Below are positions 38,491 through 47,729 of a stretch of DNA of 64,000 nt, one piece after another (position 1 is the first letter of the stretch; each line of letters begins with the position of its first letter). Under the pieces are notes generated by a model. It worked only from the letters and a program-made list of their open reading frames with translations, was not told where the DNA came from and did not search any database. Origin of the DNA: Oribacterium sp. P6A1 (GTDB lineage Bacteria; Bacillota; Clostridia; Lachnospirales; Lachnospiraceae); NCBI RefSeq assembly GCF_000702885.1, contig NZ_JNKO01000003.1:124001-188000 (forward strand), written 5' to 3'. Made by a program: the position numbers and the translations under genes.

Positions 38491-40185
38491 ATGGATTATC
38501 GTAACAGATACAATGAATGGCTTGATAGGCTTGATGATACAGATCCTTTAAAGCAGGATCTTCTTTCCATAAAGGATGATGAAACAGAAAAGGAGGATCG
38601 TTTCTATCAGGATCTTTCTTTTGGCACTGCCGGTCTCAGAGGCAAGGTCGGTGCCGGCACAAACCGCATGAACTTCTATACTGTAGGTAAGGCTACCCAG
38701 GGCATTGCAGACTATATAGTGGCTCACGGTAAGGAGGCCATGGAAAAGGGCGTTGTTATAGCCCATGATCCGAGACATTTTTCCAGAGAATTTTCGGAGC
38801 TTACGGCAGGCATACTTGCTGCCAACGGAATAAAGGCATACACCTTTCCTTCTCTCCGTCCTACTCCGGAGCTTGCCTTCATGGTAAGACGTCTCGGGAC
38901 CATAGCAGGTATCAATATCACAGCATCCCACAATCCTAAGGAATATAACGGATATAAGGCATACTGGGAGGATGGCTGTCAGGTATCAAGCGAAGTTGCC
39001 GACGGCATGCTTGAGAAGATACAGGCTGTTGATATCTGGAACGGCATTAAGAAATCAGACTATGAGGAAGGCGTAAAGACAGGAGCCATAACCGTTCTCG
39101 GTGAAGAGTATGACAAAGAGTACCTTGATAAGGTTCTGAGTTTGAAGATTCATGACGGTGATGAGATCGATCTGGACATTCCATTCGTATATACACCTCT
39201 TAACGGCTGCGGTTCCATACCTTTCAGAGAGATGCTCAAGAAGCGCGGATTTAAGAACTGGAAAATAGTTCCCGAGCAGGAAATGCCGGATCCTGACTTC
39301 AAGACTGTGGGATATCCGAATCCTGAAGATCCAAAGGCATTTAAACTCAGTGAACAGTACGGCCGTGAATTCGGTGCCGAGCTTCTCATGGCAACAGACC
39401 CTGATTCAGACAGATTTGCTATCGAGATTCGTGATGCAGAGGGCAACTACATTCCTCTTAACGGAAACCAGACAGGATATCTTCTTGTAAATTACATCCT
39501 TGAGGGACATAAGACAGCAGGCACTCTTCCTAAGAAGGGAGCTATGATCAAGTCCATCGTAACTTCCACTCTCTCGGATATCATCGCGAAGGCTTACGGC
39601 GTTGAGATGTTTGAGACCCTTACAGGTTTCAAGAACATCTGCGGAAAGATACCTTATCTCCATGAGAACGGCTACACTTACCTCTTTGGTTATGAGGAGT
39701 CGGTTGGTTACGCAGCATGCGAGGAAATCCGCGACAAGGACGGTATCTCAGCAGGAATGCTTGTAGCTGAAGCCGCTGCCTACTACAGAAAACAGGGAAA
39801 GACCCTTTGGGATGTTCTTCAGGAGATTTACGCAAAGTACGGATACTTCGCAGAGGATGAGCCAAACCTCGTTCTGGAAGGAATACCGGGAGCACAGCGC
39901 ATCAAGCGTATGATGAGCTGGATCCGTGAGAACCATCCCACAGAACTTGCAGGTTCAAAGGTAGTAAAGGTCATCGACTACAAGGACGGCTACGAGGATA
40001 TTCCCGCACAGAACGCCATCAAGTTCTTCCTTGAAAACGGTTCCTGGTTTGCCATCAGACCAAGCGGTACCGAGCCAAAGATCAAGTTCTACATCTACTC
40101 CGTTCAGGACTCAAGAGAAAAGGCACTTTCCGTCAATAAACGCCTGAAGGAAGAGATACTTGCTCTTATTCAGACTGTAGAGTAA
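38491..40185 (+). CDS. pgcA: Phosphoglucomutase/phosphomannomutase
   Basis: 564 residues, the alpha-D-phosphohexomutase fold. The phosphoserine loop is TASHNPKEYNGYK (Ser 146), the metal loop ATDPDSDRF (~305), the sugar-binding loop GYEESVGY, and the phosphate-binding loop RPSGTEPKIKFY near the C-terminus. It interconverts glucose-1- and glucose-6-phosphate for glycogen, exopolysaccharide and cell-wall precursors. The length fits the long PgcA-type of Firmicutes. ACAGGAGG precedes the ATG. It is a single-gene unit ending at a bidirectional terminator, with the 58-bp repeat copy C in its 3' region. Confidence 0.94.
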   Translation: MDYRNRYNEWLDRLDDTDPLKQDLLSIKDDETEKEDRFYQDLSFGTAGLRGKVGAGTNRMNFYTVGKATQGIADYIVAHGKEAMEKGVVIAHDPRHFSREFSELTAGILAANGIKAYTFPSLRPTPELAFMVRRLGTIAGINITASHNPKEYNGYKAYWEDGCQVSSEVADGMLEKIQAVDIWNGIKKSDYEEGVKTGAITVLGEEYDKEYLDKVLSLKIHDGDEIDLDIPFVYTPLNGCGSIPFREMLKKRGFKNWKIVPEQEMPDPDFKTVGYPNPEDPKAFKLSEQYGREFGAELLMATDPDSDRFAIEIRDAEGNYIPLNGNQTGYLLVNYILEGHKTAGTLPKKGAMIKSIVTSTLSDIIAKAYGVEMFETLTGFKNICGKIPYLHENGYTYLFGYEESVGYAACEEIRDKDGISAGMLVAEAAAYYRKQGKTLWDVLQEIYAKYGYFAEDEPNLVLEGIPGAQRIKRMMSWIRENHPTELAGSKVVKVIDYKDGYEDIPAQNAIKFFLENGSWFAIRPSGTEPKIKFYIYSVQDSREKALSVNKRLKEEILALIQTVE

Positions 40186-40379: not shown

Positions 40380-42890
40380 TCATACAGTCAGAGAACCGGG
40401 TCCTGCCTGGTTAGCTATGATTACGAATGTAAATGCATTTCCATCTGTGCCCCTGAATACAGGAAGATCCAAAGTTCCGTCTGTATTACATGTAACGGTA
40501 TAAGTTTCTCCATTACTGTAAACAACTGTGTATGTTACACCATGCTGAACATTGGCAGTAACAGGAACATAGAATCCTGTTGCTGCTGAAGATAAGAACA
40601 GATCAGCAGGGTTAATGAATCCTGCACCAAATGTATTCTGAGGAGCTACAGTGCCATTGGTTGCTGTAAATGTGTTGGCGATGGTTGTCATATCATCTGT
40701 GTAACCAACTACTCTTGAAAGATCAACAGGCACTAAATTGAAAGAAGCGTCCATAACCATAGGAACAACTGAACCCTGAGACTGGAGGATATCAGGTGTT
40801 CTTGAGTTAAATGTTAATGTAGCTGTAGGTGTCATATTGACCGAAACTGTATTACCTGAGCCACCGGATGTTCCTGATCCGCCGCCTGAACCTGAATCAC
40901 TATCTGAACCGGATCCTGAGCTTCCGGATGAACCAATGTACTTTGCGTCAGGAATGGTAAGTTCGATATGAGTTCCGGATGCGATGGTAAGTGTCCATGT
41001 TCCATCAGTATTCCTTGTAGCTGTAACACCGGCAGGAACATCAATTGATGAGATGTAATAATTATCGTTAGGTGTGATGAGCATAGTTGTATAAGAAGTC
41101 TCAGTACCCTGCTGTCCTAACCATGTCTTATCATCGTATGCAGTTGTACCATCAAGACCACTTGTTGACAGATACTGACCCTGAGATATAGCGATTGTGA
41201 AGTACTCAGTACCGGTAGACTTGTCCTTTACGGTACCACCATAATTATAAACTTCACCGGTGTTCTTATTTACTACACCCTTATTCTGCCAAACGACACC
41301 CTGGTTATCCTTGATGATATTTTCGTTATTAACAACGTCACCGGCATTTACTTCAACAATGAAATTGTTATCAGTTACCAGACCATTGTTTTGATAAACT
41401 GTTCCTTCGTTAGTAGTAAGGAAGCCGTTGTTCTTGTCAACTTTTCCCGACTGTGTATTGGTCTCAATAACAGCATTATTTATAGTGATAATGCTGTTAT
41501 TTGTCGTAACGACAGCAGCGGTCTCGGTATTCTCAACTTCGACTTCGTCTGAACTTACTCCATTCTGATAAATTTTGCCATAATTATTATTAATCTGACT
41601 ATAGTTTGTTTCAACATATCCATCTGCTTTATTCCAGTCGATGGTATTCAGGTTATTGTTGACTGTGTCATAGTTGTATTCAATAGTCCCATTATTAGTG
41701 GTTATAGTACCGTTATTCTCTCCCACGGTTCCATTGTTAGTTGTGATAGTCAATTCGTTATCCTGAACGGTACCATCGTTTATATTGATTGAACCATTGT
41801 TTGTTCCGACTTTATTATTATTTTCATCAATATATTTATTATTCGTGGTTACTGTGCCTGTATTATCATAGATGGTGCCTTCATTGTTTTTTACAGTGCC
41901 CTTCGTGCCTTTTTCATTGCTGTTCTGGTTGATTATGCCATAGTTAGTGCCAACAGTAGAGCCATTGTAATTAATGGTAGCGTTAGGATACTCTTTACCA
42001 CCATTATAATCAAGATTAGCCTCATTATAATTGATAGTTCCTGAATTATGAGTATTATTTTTTTCATCTAAACCAACAGTACCCTTATTGGTATCAATGG
42101 TACCTTTATTGGAACCAACAGTACCCTTATTGGCACCAATGGTGCCAATATTAACACCAACAGCACCAAGGTTTGTTTCAATGGTTCCACCGGAGAGGTT
42201 ATCATTTACTTTACCATAGTTGGTGCCGATTTTACCGTTGTTTTCCACAATAGTACCGTTTTCATTGTTATTAACAACAGTTCCGTAGTTGGTTTCAATC
42301 AGACTAGGTGCTTCTCCCCAGCTTGCCTCATCAATTGTACCTACAATTGCGCCTCCTTCAATTGTACCTACATTAATTTCGCCTTCTTCATTCTTAGGAC
42401 TATCGTTATTTTTAACTGTACCATTGTTGGTCTGAATAGTTCCCAGGTTGGTATCGACGGTACCTGTTTTTTCGTTGGTAACTATAGTACCATCGGTGTT
42501 GTTGGTACCTACATGTCCACTGTTAGAGTTGATAGTTTCAATGTAATCATTATCAGGATTTGAAGTAGTATTTTTACTGTTATCGCCGTTATGGTCTACT
42601 TCTCCTCGGTTAGTCTTTATATCACCGCCATACTCGGTATTGGCTTTTCCCTTTGATTCAACATAAACTGTAGTTCCTGAGCTGTTTACATTACCTGATT
42701 CGCCAGATTCGCCATGTGTTACTGTAACATAACCACCCTCAGAATCATCAATTGTTATACTTCCTGTTGCCGCCATAGCCGGTACCTGACACTGTCCTAC
42801 AGTGATTGTCAGGGCTGTAAGCATAGTAACTGTCTTCTTAAAGTTTCTTTTCATACCTTTAACCTTTCTGATTGTGAGGCACATAACCAA
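40380..42890 (-). CDS. Secreted Asn-rich heptad-repeat protein (larger paralogue)
   Basis: 836 residues with a signal peptide ending near QVPAMAATG. From about 80 to 560 it is a nearly continuous series of seven-residue units (x-N-N/x-G-T-I/V-x, for example TNNGTVG, ENNGTIT, TNNGTIE), giving a very long predicted beta-solenoid with stacked Asn and Ile/Val positions. A globular segment (GTEYFTIAISQG, WLGQQGTETSYTT, NTDGTWTLTIASG), a Gly/Ser/Asp linker and a beta-rich C-terminal domain (TYTVVYSNGETYTVTCNTDG) match the paralogue at 29084. No wall anchor was seen. It may be an adhesin or matrix component; function unknown. Confidence 0.75.
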   Translation of the reverse strand: MVMCLTIRKVKGMKRNFKKTVTMLTALTITVGQCQVPAMAATGSITIDDSEGGYVTVTHGESGESGNVNSSGTTVYVESKGKANTEYGGDIKTNRGEVDHNGDNSKNTTSNPDNDYIETINSNSGHVGTNNTDGTIVTNEKTGTVDTNLGTIQTNNGTVKNNDSPKNEEGEINVGTIEGGAIVGTIDEASWGEAPSLIETNYGTVVNNNENGTIVENNGKIGTNYGKVNDNLSGGTIETNLGAVGVNIGTIGANKGTVGSNKGTIDTNKGTVGLDEKNNTHNSGTINYNEANLDYNGGKEYPNATINYNGSTVGTNYGIINQNSNEKGTKGTVKNNEGTIYDNTGTVTTNNKYIDENNNKVGTNNGSININDGTVQDNELTITTNNGTVGENNGTITTNNGTIEYNYDTVNNNLNTIDWNKADGYVETNYSQINNNYGKIYQNGVSSDEVEVENTETAAVVTTNNSIITINNAVIETNTQSGKVDKNNGFLTTNEGTVYQNNGLVTDNNFIVEVNAGDVVNNENIIKDNQGVVWQNKGVVNKNTGEVYNYGGTVKDKSTGTEYFTIAISQGQYLSTSGLDGTTAYDDKTWLGQQGTETSYTTMLITPNDNYYISSIDVPAGVTATRNTDGTWTLTIASGTHIELTIPDAKYIGSSGSSGSGSDSDSGSGGGSGTSGGSGNTVSVNMTPTATLTFNSRTPDILQSQGSVVPMVMDASFNLVPVDLSRVVGYTDDMTTIANTFTATNGTVAPQNTFGAGFINPADLFLSSAATGFYVPVTANVQHGVTYTVVYSNGETYTVTCNTDGTLDLPVFRGTDGNAFTFVIIANQAGPGSLTV

Positions 42891-43204
42891 TAAAACAGAT
42901 CCCTCTTGGTTTTGAATTTAGTCAGTGCCGGAATTTAAAATTGCTGTATATGGTATGCTTGAGAAAAACGTGTTTCTTTTATGCACTATGTAGCATATTT
43001 TTTCTCATACTCACCCCACAGCATCACGCTCAACTATGTTTAAAATTTCGTCAATATATATATATATATAAGGCTAAAGTTGTGAAATCTTTATAAAGTC
43101 GTCATATGTTAATGAAATAGACATAAAATTCTTGATTGCTTGGATATTGAGTAGAAACGAATTAACCGGGTATAGAAATGTCATAACACTATACTCGTAT
43201 AGTA
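42891..43204. other. Intergenic region upstream of the large repeat protein
   Basis: AT-rich, no ORF. It includes a (TA)n tract at about 43053-43070, as also found before the paralogue at 31208, a small ATGC/GCAT stem near 42980-42996, and a CTATAC/GTATAG inverted repeat at about 43189-43202. TTGACG next to the TA tract could be the -35 of the repeat-protein gene. Confidence 0.4.
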
Positions 43205-43368
43205 GCGGAAGAAAATGCAAGGGATGGGTGCCAAGGCTTGCGAATTGAGAGCACATACCGCGTAGAAGTGTTCGTATCCGGGCGCACGTAAGTGCGAACG
43301 GGGCGAACACTGCAAGCGGGATGTGAAATCAATTGAGTGAGCCGGCACCCGCCCTTGCATTTTCTGTA
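43205..43368 (+). ncRNA. Structured element 1 (RNA or MITE-like), upstream of hom
   Basis: About 160 bases fold into one long rod. The outer stem is GAAAATGCAAGGG (43211-43223) with CCCTTGCATTTTC (43352-43364), then GGGTGCC/GGCACCC and GGCT/AGCC. Inner stems are AATTGA/TCAATT, CACAT/ATGTG and CCGC/GCGG, then AGTGTTCG/CGAACACT, capped by CGCAC-GTAA-GTGCG. Element 2 at 44943 keeps the structure with compensatory changes. The transcribed strand is unproven; plus is shown. Confidence 0.6.
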
Positions 43369-43530
43369 TTAAACAAAATAAATCATCCATAGTAATCATT
43401 GATATTCCTAAACGAAATTGTCCGGCCCTCATAAAATATGCTAAAATAACAAGATGGATATTTTTCCAAAATCTGCCGATAAATCATTTGTAGTAACATC
43501 GGCTTTAAATAATCTGAAATCGGAGAAATC

Positions 43531-44823
43531 ATGAAAAAGATAAACATTGGTATGCTTGGCATAGGAAATATCGGTAAGGGAACCTATCAGACCCTTGAGA
43601 TGAGCCGTTCAAAGATAGAGCAGTCTACAGGTATGTCCCTGGAAATCGTGAAGATCCTTAATCGTCATCCTGAGATCGACAGAGGAATCGACATACCAAA
43701 AGAGAAATATGTGACCGATGCCTATGACATCATTAACGATCCTGATATAGATATAGTTGTGGAACTTATCGGAGGTATAGAGCCTGCCACAACCTTTATG
43801 GCAGATGCCCTGAAGGCAGGCAAGCATGTGGTTACTGCCAACAAGGCCGCTATTGCCGCAAACGGACAGATGCTTCAGGAGCTTGCTTACAAAAACCAGC
43901 TTATGCTCCGCTTTGAAGCAAGTGTAGCCGGAGGTATCCCTATTCTCAATGCTATCTCCAGTGCCCTTATCTCCAATGAGTTCAGTCAGGTTCAGGGAAT
44001 CCTTAACGGAACCACCAACTATATCCTTACCAAGATGACAGAGAACGGTACACCTTATGAAGAGGTGCTCAAGGATGCTCAGGCGAAGGGCTTTGCCGAG
44101 GCTGACCCCACTGCCGATGTTGAGGGAATCGATGCAGCGAACAAGCTGTCCATCCTCATCTCTCTTCTTTTCGGTATAGGCATTAAGCCCGGTGATATCC
44201 CCACCAAGGGAATCACAACAGTTACCAGCGAAGACATTGCCTTTGCCAAGGAATTCGGCTACAAGATAAAGCTTCTTGCAACAGCTCATAACGAGAACGG
44301 TAAGGTAACCTGCAATGTTGAGCCCTCCCTTGTATCGGAGAACCATCCTCTTGCCAATGTCAACAACGAGTTCAATGCAGTCTACATCACAGGAAACGCA
44401 GTGGACAATCTCATGTTTTACGGACGTGGTGCAGGGCCTCTTCCCACAGGTAGCGCGGTTATAGGAGATGTTGTCAGTGTTGCCCGTAAGATCGAAAAGG
44501 GAGCAGCCTATGACCTTCTTCCACATCTTCGATATGATGCAGATCTTGAATTTGCCGGTGAAGGAGCTCATCACTATTACATCCATTGCCATGCTGTTGA
44601 TCATCCCGGTGTTCTTGGTCAGATCGCATCCACTCTCGGTGTATACGGCATCGGCATCAAGACCATGATGCAGCGTGCAGGTGACAACTCAGGAGGAACA
44701 GTTCCTATGATTTTCATAGTGTACGATGTTGATAAGAGCATCCTCACCACTGCCCTGCAGGTTCTTCTTACAAACGGTTCGGTTTCATCAGTAGACAATG
44801 TTCTCAGAGTACTGAAATCATAA
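43531..44823 (+). CDS. hom: Homoserine dehydrogenase
   Basis: 430 residues. The N-terminal NAD(P)-binding motif is GMLGIGNIGKGTYQ. The catalytic region has KAGKHVVTANKAAIA, EASVAGGIPILNAI, the GTTNYIL loop and GFAEADPTADVEGIDAANKL. From ~350 an ACT-type regulatory domain follows (YYIHCHAVDHPGVLGQIAS). It reduces aspartate semialdehyde to homoserine on the way to threonine and methionine. Length and motifs are typical of Firmicute Hom. A promoter with TTGTCC and an extended TGCTAAAAT lies near 43419-43449. It is a single gene with its own terminator, flanked on both sides by the structured elements. Confidence 0.95.
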   Translation: MKKINIGMLGIGNIGKGTYQTLEMSRSKIEQSTGMSLEIVKILNRHPEIDRGIDIPKEKYVTDAYDIINDPDIDIVVELIGGIEPATTFMADALKAGKHVVTANKAAIAANGQMLQELAYKNQLMLRFEASVAGGIPILNAISSALISNEFSQVQGILNGTTNYILTKMTENGTPYEEVLKDAQAKGFAEADPTADVEGIDAANKLSILISLLFGIGIKPGDIPTKGITTVTSEDIAFAKEFGYKIKLLATAHNENGKVTCNVEPSLVSENHPLANVNNEFNAVYITGNAVDNLMFYGRGAGPLPTGSAVIGDVVSVARKIEKGAAYDLLPHLRYDADLEFAGEGAHHYYIHCHAVDHPGVLGQIASTLGVYGIGIKTMMQRAGDNSGGTVPMIFIVYDVDKSILTTALQVLLTNGSVSSVDNVLRVLKS

Positions 44824-44825
44824 AG

Positions 44826-44862
44826 AAAAACGGTTCCGGCTTTATGCCGGAACCGTTTTTTT
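44826..44862 (+). terminator. Terminator of hom
   Basis: AAACGGTTCCGGC pairs with GCCGGAACCGTTT, followed by a T run; directly after the stop codon. Confidence 0.93.
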
Positions 44863-44942
44863 ATTAATACAATGACGTGAGTGTCAAAATTCGATATCGA
44901 ATCGTTTCGCACTTTGCGCTCTCACTTATATCATGTAATAAC

Positions 44943-45100
44943 AGAAACTGCATCGGGATATGCACCAAGGCTTGCGAGTTGAAAGAACAGACTGTGCAGG
45001 ACTGTACGTTTCCGGATGCACCTGAGTGCATCCGGTACGAACAGGACAAACAGGATGTACTTTCAATCGAGTGGGCCGGTGCGATCCCGTTGCAGTTTCG
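44943..45100 (+). ncRNA. Structured element 2 (RNA or MITE-like), downstream of hom
   Basis: Related to element 1. The outer stem is GAAACTGCATCGGGAT (44944-44959) with ATCCCGTTGCAGTTTC (45084-45099), then GCACC/GGTGC, GGCT/GGCC and GTTGAAAG/CTTTCAAT. The apical stem is CCGGATGCAC-CTGA-GTGCATCCGG. Conserved with element 1 are CCAAGGCTTGCGARTTGA and GAGTGRGCCGG. A further outer pairing ATCGAATCG/CGATTCGAT (44896, 45099) is possible. TTGCGC and TAATAA with a 16-base spacer could start a plus-strand transcript near 44946. Confidence 0.6.
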
Positions 45101-45119
45101 ATTCGATCACTTGATTTAT

Positions 45120-47702
45120 TTACTCGTTCCCGTATGAGCCCTTCATCTCATAGCAGAAGATTTCTTTACCCTGAGGATCAAGTCCGATGGAAGCATTGTC
45201 ACAGGTATACACGATATAGTGATCATAGACTTCAGGATAACTCTCAGTCTCAACCAGAAGTTTGAAGTTCTTATCAAACAGTTGGTAATGATCTCCCTTA
45301 GAGTCATCACAGACGAAAAGCCATTCGTTGGTCAATTTATCGGATGATATATTGATGTAGCCGTTATCTGCATGGAAGACTTCCTTGAGATCTTCATCAT
45401 ATACACATTCCCTTGTATCCGTGTTTTCATCCGTGTAAGTGCTGACCTTTATGTAAGGAACATCGGCAGTTCCCTCTATGGTATAGAAAGGATAAGCATA
45501 GGATGCGCCATCGATGAATATGCTCTTGCCGGTTATGATGTTCATGAGCCATACGCCTTCACTTTCATTCTGGCTGACGTTTTTCGGGCTGGCCTTTGTA
45601 CCGTTTGCATAGGCGATAGGTATCTTATCTCCGAAGTTCCAGATGTTCTCTTCATCATTGAGAAGCTCATTGCCTTCGTTGTCATAGTATGTATAGTACC
45701 AGCCGGAATCTGAATAGAAGCTAAGGTAGAATCCCCAGTCGTATACTCCGATGCTGCTGCAGACAGGAAGAGTATGGATCAGTTTTCCGGTTTTGTCGTA
45801 AATGTCGGTTCCTGCATCATTTTTTGCAACGACATATCCGTTATTAAGGATCTCCGCCATTTCATATCCGCTTCCTATGTACTCTTTTCCGGTTTCATCG
45901 ATAACAGAGGCATAGTTTCCGTCACGTACAAAGGCACGTCCGTACTTAAAAGGCTCGGCATAGCTGTAAGGTCCGAGAACTATCTTTTTTGAGTTTTCAT
46001 CAACATAATAGTAGCCGTCATTAAAATCGAAAACAAAGTAGCCGTCACTATAGTTTACGTCATAGAGATAGTCCCCCTGATTTAGTTTTTGAGAAACGAT
46101 TCCATCGTTTGCCTTGTCAAGCTCGTCGTAGGTCATTACAACATTGGTATCAAGGTCATAGATAACGAAATCATTTGTTTCATCAGAAGCCTTACACATC
46201 ACATGATCTCTCATTCCGGAGATATATCCGTATTCCGGAGAGACGAAGCTTCCGTCCTTTGATATGAACCTCTGGTGAATGTTTTCGTTCGGCAGTGTCA
46301 CATCCTCATTGTTAAATGCTGCCGAATCATAGGGCAGATCATATTTTACCGCTCTGTAGAAAGGAAGACTGATTTCATTTCGTTCCAGAGAATCGTAGTA
46401 ATCGATGACATTGATTGAATTGTAAACAGGGTCTGTAACGAGCCGGCCTTTTGTATCGAGGAATCCGTTCATATATCCTGCAAGGTAGGAGTAGCCATCC
46501 TCATCTTCTCCGGTTGCGTTGTATCCGTAGCTTACGTAAAGGGATGCTCCGTCATAGGGCATCAACAGGCCGTAATCATCACGCGGGGAAACTTCTGTAA
46601 GGGTGCCATTATCAAGGCGGATGAAATTGTCCTGATGTTTATGTCCTTTGCCTGAAGCTTCATCCCCAAAGGAGGAAACATCCATTACAGATACATATCC
46701 CATTGAGGATACAAGGCGCTGACCGTCTTCGGAAACCAGCCAGTCATAGAGCACTCGTGCACCCTTTACACGTTCATCCGTCACATCCGCATCCTCCGGG
46801 ATGACACTGTAGTATGCGTTACGATGAGGATACTCCTCGTTTCGGATAGTTTTCGGATTCGGTGAAACTCCGTCAACGGCGATGATCTTCAGGCCATTTG
46901 CCATTTTCATATCGTTGGCGTAGTAGTAAACCGAATAGCCGATGGCATTGGCAGAGTTATCATAGGATTTTACCGCAGTCATGAGTTCGCCCATTTCCGT
47001 GGCAACAAGCCCCTTCGGAGCTTCCATCATAGGGGTATCCTTCATGACGTGCTTGAGAATCAGGGCCTGTGAACCGGCACCTTCATTACGCTGGAAAGGA
47101 ACGATCTCGGCATCGTTTCCTCCAACTTCCTTCCAGTTTGTTATCTTTCCCGAGTAAATGTCTCTGATCTGATCGGTGGTCAGGGAATCCACAGGATTGT
47201 CTTCATTGACAACGAAAATAAGGGCATCTGTTGCAAAATTCTCGATTCTGTACTTGAAGCCCGCTTCTTCCATTTCGGAGAAGACCTTTGCATTAGGTTC
47301 TCCCACTATAAGGATGTCTGCATCTCCCGCAAGGAGGTTTCGGAAGGACTGGGTGGTTCTGTTGAAGTGACAAAGATCCTCCACATCCTCGGGAGTAGTG
47401 TTAAGGAAGGTGCTTGCGATAGCCTTTCCCAAAGGTACGGTAGCTGTTGAACCATCCATACGTGGGAAGTTTTCTTTGGTGTAATTGAAATCAGGAAGCT
47501 TTATGGGAGCAACGGAAGCTTTGGTTTCTTCTGTCTTTTCCTCCGGTGCTTCTTTCTTTTCAGCTTCACTCTCCTTTACGGGAGCTGTTGTTTCAGGACT
47601 TACAGTTGTGGTTTCAGGTGCTGCAGCCGTCTTATTGCCTGAACATCCGGACACAGCAAGAGCTGCCATGGCTATCATGGCAGCCGAAATGCGTTTTCTC
47701 AT
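45120..47702 (-). CDS. Lipoprotein fusing a phosphate-binding-like domain to WG repeats
   Basis: 860 residues from the ATG at 47702 (MRKRISAAM), chosen for the GGAG six bases before it. The lipoprotein signal ends in VSGC, followed by a Thr/Glu/Ala linker. Residues ~75-345 resemble PstS-type periplasmic phosphate-binding proteins (FPRMDGSTATVPLGKAIAS, YSGKITNWKEVGGND, FQRNEGAGSQALILKH). Residues ~370-860 hold repeated WG-like units with the pattern aromatic-x-D-x-x-G-K (MNGFLDTKGRLVTDPVYNSI, VIDETGKEYIGSG, IYDKTGKLIHTLP). The combination suggests a surface receptor or sensor rather than plain phosphate uptake; there are no pstCAB genes nearby. Confidence 0.75.
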   Translation of the reverse strand: MRKRISAAMIAMAALAVSGCSGNKTAAAPETTTVSPETTAPVKESEAEKKEAPEEKTEETKASVAPIKLPDFNYTKENFPRMDGSTATVPLGKAIASTFLNTTPEDVEDLCHFNRTTQSFRNLLAGDADILIVGEPNAKVFSEMEEAGFKYRIENFATDALIFVVNEDNPVDSLTTDQIRDIYSGKITNWKEVGGNDAEIVPFQRNEGAGSQALILKHVMKDTPMMEAPKGLVATEMGELMTAVKSYDNSANAIGYSVYYYANDMKMANGLKIIAVDGVSPNPKTIRNEEYPHRNAYYSVIPEDADVTDERVKGARVLYDWLVSEDGQRLVSSMGYVSVMDVSSFGDEASGKGHKHQDNFIRLDNGTLTEVSPRDDYGLLMPYDGASLYVSYGYNATGEDEDGYSYLAGYMNGFLDTKGRLVTDPVYNSINVIDYYDSLERNEISLPFYRAVKYDLPYDSAAFNNEDVTLPNENIHQRFISKDGSFVSPEYGYISGMRDHVMCKASDETNDFVIYDLDTNVVMTYDELDKANDGIVSQKLNQGDYLYDVNYSDGYFVFDFNDGYYYVDENSKKIVLGPYSYAEPFKYGRAFVRDGNYASVIDETGKEYIGSGYEMAEILNNGYVVAKNDAGTDIYDKTGKLIHTLPVCSSIGVYDWGFYLSFYSDSGWYYTYYDNEGNELLNDEENIWNFGDKIPIAYANGTKASPKNVSQNESEGVWLMNIITGKSIFIDGASYAYPFYTIEGTADVPYIKVSTYTDENTDTRECVYDEDLKEVFHADNGYINISSDKLTNEWLFVCDDSKGDHYQLFDKNFKLLVETESYPEVYDHYIVYTCDNASIGLDPQGKEIFCYEMKGSYGNE

Positions 47703-47729
47703 AATAATCTCCATTCCGCTGCATTGAGC

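Follow-up and report, generated by a model that had tools for sequence, protein, structure and literature searches.

Two structured elements flank hom in Oribacterium sp. P6A1

The window analysed here is a 64,000-nucleotide stretch of the Oribacterium sp. P6A1 genome. Within it, two elements of similar structure lie on either side of a gene that a preliminary description had named as homoserine dehydrogenase (hom), an assignment with which Pfam agrees (PF00742, E 1.7e-64). Element 1 (whole rod 43205–43368, + strand; model match 43209–43365) is located between a divergent 836-aa ORF and hom, a context denoted -E+. Element 2 (44942–45100, + strand, for both the whole rod and the model match) is located between hom and a convergent gene (+E-), and its stem ends 20 bp from the stop codon of the latter. 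A terminator-like hairpin can be seen by eye at 44830–44863 and element 2 lies beyond that hairpin, as the description had it. Further neighbours recognised by Pfam are a phosphoglucomutase (38491–40185) and a PBP-like protein (45120–47714). The 836-aa ORF between phosphoglucomutase and hom (40380–42890, - strand) contains short Asn/Gly-rich repeats (TNNGTV-like) and had no match in a Pfam search; phosphoglucomutase and hom are adjacent without this ORF in genomes G015 and G010.

The two elements are homologous rods of about 157 nt that share 71% identity (E 2.6e-14 and 2.5e-14), which agrees with their first description as two elements of about 160 nt with one rod architecture and the same orientation. 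Each is predicted to fold as a single rod, element 1 at -101.2 kcal/mol (z -11.85) and element 2 at -92.6 kcal/mol (z -11.79), and none of 200 dinucleotide shuffles of either was equally stable. The covariance model R1, which was built from 30 copies, these two among them, scores element 1 at 147.4 bits and element 2 at 138.3 bits.

The conserved 5' core of element 1, CCAAGGCTTGCGAATTGA (43231–43248, + strand), occupies columns 24–41 of alignments A3 and A4; it has two unpaired bases, followed by one side of a U-G/G-U tandem. In these alignments it pairs with the conserved 3' core GAGTGAGCCGG (43335–43345, + strand). From the sequence and the same alignments, the corresponding cores of element 2 are CCAAGGCTTGCGAGTTGA (44965–44982, + strand) and GAGTGGGCCGG (45069–45079, + strand). 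The cores enclose a variable inner hairpin, at 43256–43321 in element 1 (+ strand, columns 49–125) and at 44990–45055 in element 2 (+ strand). Between the elements an A-U pair of the outer stem is replaced by C-G (GAAAATGCA/TGCATTTTC in element 1, GAAACTGCA/TGCAGTTTC in element 2). The conserved words and the compensatory differences in the outer and apical stems that had been reported are all present in the sequence.

No Rfam model matched anywhere in the window at its gathering score; the preliminary description had made no confident match to a known class. At relaxed E-values there were 11 matches over 43150–45150 and 10 over four composite loci, all below the gathering score; in most of them an sRNA or microRNA model had hit the hom terminator or a perfect stem.

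A dispersed intergenic family in Oribacterium

When 61 genomes were searched by BLAST with element 1 as query, eight had copies, its own included, and all eight are Oribacterium. With R1, a dispersed intergenic family was found in 9 of 17 Oribacterium genomes, with 7–74 matches each (E ≤ 0.01). As these totals include matches of the palindromic second strand, there are fewer places than matches: in P6A1, 14 matches at E ≤ 1e-5 represent 8 places. With stricter filters, R1 matched none of 198 Lachnospiraceae genomes from other genera. The sample drawn comprised 200 genomes, and its two Oribacterium members were one with the repeat (G000) and one without (G009). A degenerate pattern run over GTDB species genomes retrieved 74 stretches, and 70 of them had a full-length model match: 64 in Oribacterium, five in Lachnospiraceae bacterium JC7 and one in an uncultured Lachnospiraceae. 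The other four (L070, L089, L093 and L096) had no model match and were discarded as chance hits. No viral contig carried the pattern.

Divergent copies in G008 (L143, L152 and L160; 64–74 bits) retain the words of the core, whereas the sequence of their outer stems is quite unlike that of other copies, with pairing largely kept. Among open-licence PMC papers, we found none on published repeat elements or inverted repeats of Oribacterium and none on HEARO as a mobile RNA motif; those retrieved for miniature inverted-repeats of Lachnospiraceae were off topic by title.

In Oribacterium sp. C9 (G015), an element copy (L033, identical with L088) lies between phosphoglucomutase and hom. Its inner hairpin differs from that of element 1 by 0.36 and from that of element 2, its nearest inner match, by 0.17. 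In G010 the same gap holds a terminator-like hairpin of the ordinary type and no element, and in G004 the 500 bp upstream of hom contain no element. Downstream of hom, an orthologue of element 2 is present in G010, and in G015 only its apparent right end can be made out by eye. This patchiness in G010, G015 and G004 means that neither copy goes with hom across species. Nothing was found that links the repeat to hom, and its position beside this gene is best read as incidental.

The fold is conserved and strand-asymmetric

In alignment A3 (30 copies), standard pairs make up 86.4% of 2135 paired cells, and the covariation score is 0.255, against 0.120 for shuffled and 0.036–0.070 for slid controls. 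Alignment A4 (79 distinct copies), which was fitted to the covariance model and hence leans toward it, has 89.7% standard pairs among 5651 paired cells, both sides changed in 45 of 72 pairs, and a covariation score of 0.329 (shuffled 0.124, slid 0.047–0.065). Adjacent U-G and G-U pairs form a tandem in all 79 copies. Also visible by eye in the alignment are the two unpaired bases of the 5' core and two sites that hold either tandem G-A or Watson–Crick pairs.

The types of pairs differ between the strands, with 180 G-U cells against 37 A-C and 190 G-A against 3 C-T. Outside the four majority-wobble columns, the ratio of G-U to A-C was 2.62 in +E+ copies (23), 2.44 in +E- copies (15), 2.42 in -E+ copies (10) and 3.43 in -E- copies (14). 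As the asymmetry is the same whichever direction the neighbouring genes run, one strand of the repeat appears to be the strand that folds. This would fit RNA and single-stranded DNA equally well.

These four groups come from 73 copies, 11 of which had no context call, with calls made by our own ORF caller on ORFs of at least 80 codons. All four contexts occur, and no fixed direction of the repeat relative to a gene was found. By eye, some right ends (L114, L095 and L071) adjoin a terminator-like hairpin with its T-run.

Inner hairpins are exchanged between copies

The family is far larger than the two copies described at first, and its covariation has to be read together with module exchange. 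Copies differ on average by 0.426 in the inner columns and by 0.198 in the outer columns, with pairing kept. Orthologous copies, recognised by flanks that are 84–98% identical, have their outer arms in common and often carry different inner hairpins, which match copies at other loci. For example, the outer part of L090 is 0.03 away from that of L077 and 0.02 from that of L129, its inner part is 0.51 away from each, and the nearest inner relative of L090 is L115 at another locus (0.05). Similarly, L095 and L109 differ by 0.08 (outer) and 0.55 (inner), with L117 nearest to the inner part of L095 (0.05). The same pattern is seen in L086 and L104, which were recognised by one flank only (outer 0.04, inner 0.38; L061 nearest to the inner part of L086, 0.08). 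Other orthologous pairs, such as L068/L112, L073/L080 and L100/L121, are alike throughout. No nearly identical dispersed copies were found, and the orthologous copies look old.

Changes within 18 mutually nearest pairs, counted at well-paired columns, comprised 18 compensated doubles, 1 G-U, 3 A-C, 7 other single changes and 1 broken double in the inner part, and 7, 10, 3, 7 and 5, respectively, in the outer part. Across 38 orthologous or part-orthologous pairs, which are non-independent and in some cases recognised by one flank, there were 222 compensated doubles, 84 G-U, 25 A-C and 196 other changes. These 38-pair counts resemble compensation in place, but swapped inner blocks are visible in the alignments, and the counts are therefore not taken as proof of selection. 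A large share of the covariation thus looks to have come from exchanged modules or repaired palindromes rather than from stepwise RNA compensation. Frequent doubles and scarce wobble intermediates are in keeping with module exchange and template-switch repair (PMC8794818). Among those of the 38 pairs whose elements are at least 0.94 identical, G-U and A-C changes are few and near even, which does not support recent selection at single sites. Neither module exchange nor template-switch repair explains the conserved mismatches and the wobble bias, which speak for a single-strand fold having been selected, at least in copies that spread.

Selection on RNA structure had been proposed from the two elements alone. 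A conserved, strand-asymmetric fold is borne out in 79 copies, whereas compensation as direct proof of RNA is not supported, as orthologous copies can carry different inner hairpins that match other loci. More generally, covariation tests for structured RNA can owe much of their signal to the exchange of hairpin modules and to palindrome repair, and comparison of orthologous loci separates these processes from RNA compensation.

Nested copies, remnants and ends

Three of 75 copies (L126, L064 and L083) are enclosed, sharing one centre, by perfect outer arms that belong to this family too; L062 is nested in family arms less clearly (score 11), and L091 lies inside another palindrome of 15 bp. 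In the palindrome test, four of the 75 copies (L126, L064, L083 and L091) scored at least 12, with 0.2 expected, and seven scored at least 10, with 0.99 expected, two of these seven being mutual orthologues. The result is carried by a few copies, and insertion into existing palindromes is not supported as a general rule.

In one region compared across multiple genomes, what occupies a given gap varies from a full rod to a short remnant hairpin or just the right end. Searches with the joined flanks of seven elements gave one junction-spanning hit: the site of L116 is empty in G004, and the alignment shows no clear duplication and does not settle the exact ends or junction. No target-site duplication of 2–9 bp in a fixed register stood out in 76 copies within 60 bp, the best register being found in 5–8 copies among thousands of registers. 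The right flank is conserved for about 11–15 bp past the stem, so that the true ends of the element are not fixed. Exact 13-bp ends gave 67 matches in G004 and G014, in facing pairs at 20–307 bp and none further apart, which means that a gene-carrying version with exact ends was unseen in these two genomes. L170–L175, short elements of 33–71 bp in G014 and G004 with two 13-bp ends and little between them, resemble terminator hairpins and are probably decay products of rods.

Relation to known repeats and a candidate enzyme

REPINs are doublets of REP sequences that form hairpins (Bertels and Rainey 2011, PMC3116915, where REPs are defined by 16-mers). The rods are likewise gene-less, intergenic and multi-copy, with single-end remnants. 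In both, a pair of inverted arms is conserved and encloses a spacer that is less conserved, still pairs and commonly shows compensatory changes, and both would form a hairpin in single-stranded DNA or mRNA. The rods differ in their size (about 157 nt) and in their long asymmetric conserved arms, compared with the 16-mer REPs described there. They also swap inner hairpins between loci and form composites with a second module, and some of their carriers gave no match to Y1 transposase. Y1 transposase (PF01797) was found in 9 of 17 Oribacterium genomes, namely five of nine carriers and four of eight non-carriers, and gave no match in carriers G010 (73% complete), G011, G015 and G016. Among the elements listed, none was seen beside a full-length Y1 gene when coordinates were compared by eye. 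This distribution does not fit Y1 transposase as the mobiliser. The rods work like a REPIN but, with no Y1 (RAYT) match in four of nine carriers, are not one by the transposase test, and a different mobilising enzyme presumably exists. Lachnospiraceae thereby gain a repeat of REPIN-like form whose distribution is not that of the usual transposase.

G004 contains 30 PF01797 matches, many of them cut at contig ends, and no link to the rods was seen. These suggest a multi-copy element of IS200 type that collapsed in assembly.

Stem-loop repeat families of bacterial genomes include ERIC, BOX and bcr. Like the stem-loop families of Cozzuto et al. (2008, PMC2267715), the rods are repeated, intergenic, confined to a lineage and of one predicted structure, a likeness of form; no Rfam family matches them. 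Integron attC sites were considered for two rods in the same orientation flanking a gene, and were put aside given the free orientation and scatter of the copies.

Origin and spread of the rods

We file the rods under a previously known kind, the mobile hairpin-forming intergenic repeat, in variant form. Our preferred reading, to which we give a probability of roughly 0.6, is that they are resident copies of a genus-restricted, non-autonomous, REPIN-like mobile hairpin repeat served by a putative enzyme in trans. The unit consists of a variable inner hairpin enclosed by conserved arms, which are made up of the outer stem and a sequence-constrained core (two unpaired bases, tandem G-A pairs and the U-G/G-U tandem). 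One strand would fold as a single-stranded rod, and this fold may be what the enzyme recognises in copying or moving the repeat, as has been proposed for REPINs. Insertion would be between genes, in many cases shortly after a stop codon, and copies would then be inherited. Resident copies swap inner hairpins among themselves and sometimes receive further copies inside them, and during replication they are probably repaired as palindromes by template switching. Their decay would leave bare end-hairpins or nothing.

The rods might instead be a structured RNA element that acts in transcripts and owes its spread to being useful close to the ends of genes, with possible roles in 3'-end formation or protection, in termination in both directions or as an RNase III site. 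The strongly conserved, strand-asymmetric fold is what such an element would show. Of 29 cases in which the 3' side of an element faces the end of a gene, several of them mutual orthologues, 22 have the stop codon at most 33 bp away, element 2 among them. The C9 rod between phosphoglucomutase and hom stands where G010 has its terminator-like hairpin. Terminators were also called less often at gene ends facing an element (3 of 64) than at control ends (30 of 178; p 0.018), but the caller was crude and the difference is gone at gaps of at least 60 bp (3 of 29 against 30 of 178; p 0.58). Past the stem ends there are 5.8 and 6.6 T in 12 nt, without a pure T-run, and a terminator function of the rods is suggestive only. 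Moreover, 24 of 62 context-assigned copies have no co-directional upstream gene and show the strand asymmetry unchanged, and there is no promoter-like conservation in the 25 bp beside the stem. On balance we consider a role in transcripts the main rival reading, but rather unlikely as the reason for the spread of the family.

A classical MITE, with a DDE transposase that binds its terminal inverted repeats in double-stranded form and an inner palindrome that is a by-product, would account for the nearly symmetrical inverted repeats of the outer 13 bp, the lack of genes and the dispersal. The preliminary description had offered a MITE-like element, and dispersal, nesting and presence or absence at orthologous sites fit such an element. 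The sign that the description itself had named for a MITE, a duplication at the ends, was not found in a fixed register of 2–9 bp in the 76 copies, however. The ends covary instead of varying independently, further in the conserved arms lack symmetry and one strand is favoured, and a divergent species keeps the core with other, still paired, outer stems. A classical MITE is therefore improbable. HEARO RNA is associated with IscB, is mobile and sometimes lacks a gene, and its shape is a branched RNA. The rods share with it the multi-copy structured form, sometimes without a gene, and some contain a second multi-hairpin module. They are single rods rather than branched, however, and the part that varies is base-paired, not free. 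HEARO gave no match at E ≤ 10 in the two elements, where the resemblance had already been judged too weak to claim, or at E ≤ 1 in the four composite loci. We thus think it very improbable that the rods are gene-less relatives of HEARO or omega RNA, or of another nuclease guide RNA, moved with IS200/IS605-type elements.

A more specific form of mobility is a speculative suggestion. The rods, with their constant arms and an inner hairpin swapped between copies, could be the substrate of a system that reads a folded single strand, either DNA or reverse-transcribed RNA, and the second module could be its partner or competitor.

A second multi-hairpin module

Some elements carry, between the outer stem and the inner rod, a further multi-hairpin module, about 115 nt long and strongly conserved. 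It also occurs free, outside rods, and is found in exactly the same 9 of 17 Oribacterium genomes as the rods. Examples are L178:1058–1172 (+), L176:1039–1153 (-), L177:1031–1145 (-) and L183:1115–1229 (-), with 24 more sequences in alignment A5, where 4 of 22 predicted pairs are changed on both sides. In four loci the module had no Rfam match. At L210:150–266 (+) it lies directly upstream of a 16S rRNA gene in the opposite orientation. The sequence of L210 recurs in L211 and L212 (G015), and its adjoining sequence is also found in L207, L209 and L213, at the ends of contigs; Rfam confirmed the 16S rRNA for L210 only.

By eye, L214, L218, L220 and L223 have a hairpin similar to the module's own 5' hairpin immediately downstream of the module, as if the module had been inserted beside an existing hairpin. 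In L066:2736–2925 (-) and L069:5071–5261 (+), the outer arms are kept and the inner rod is replaced by the second module (G014 and G016), and G000 and G012 have a plain rod at the same place.
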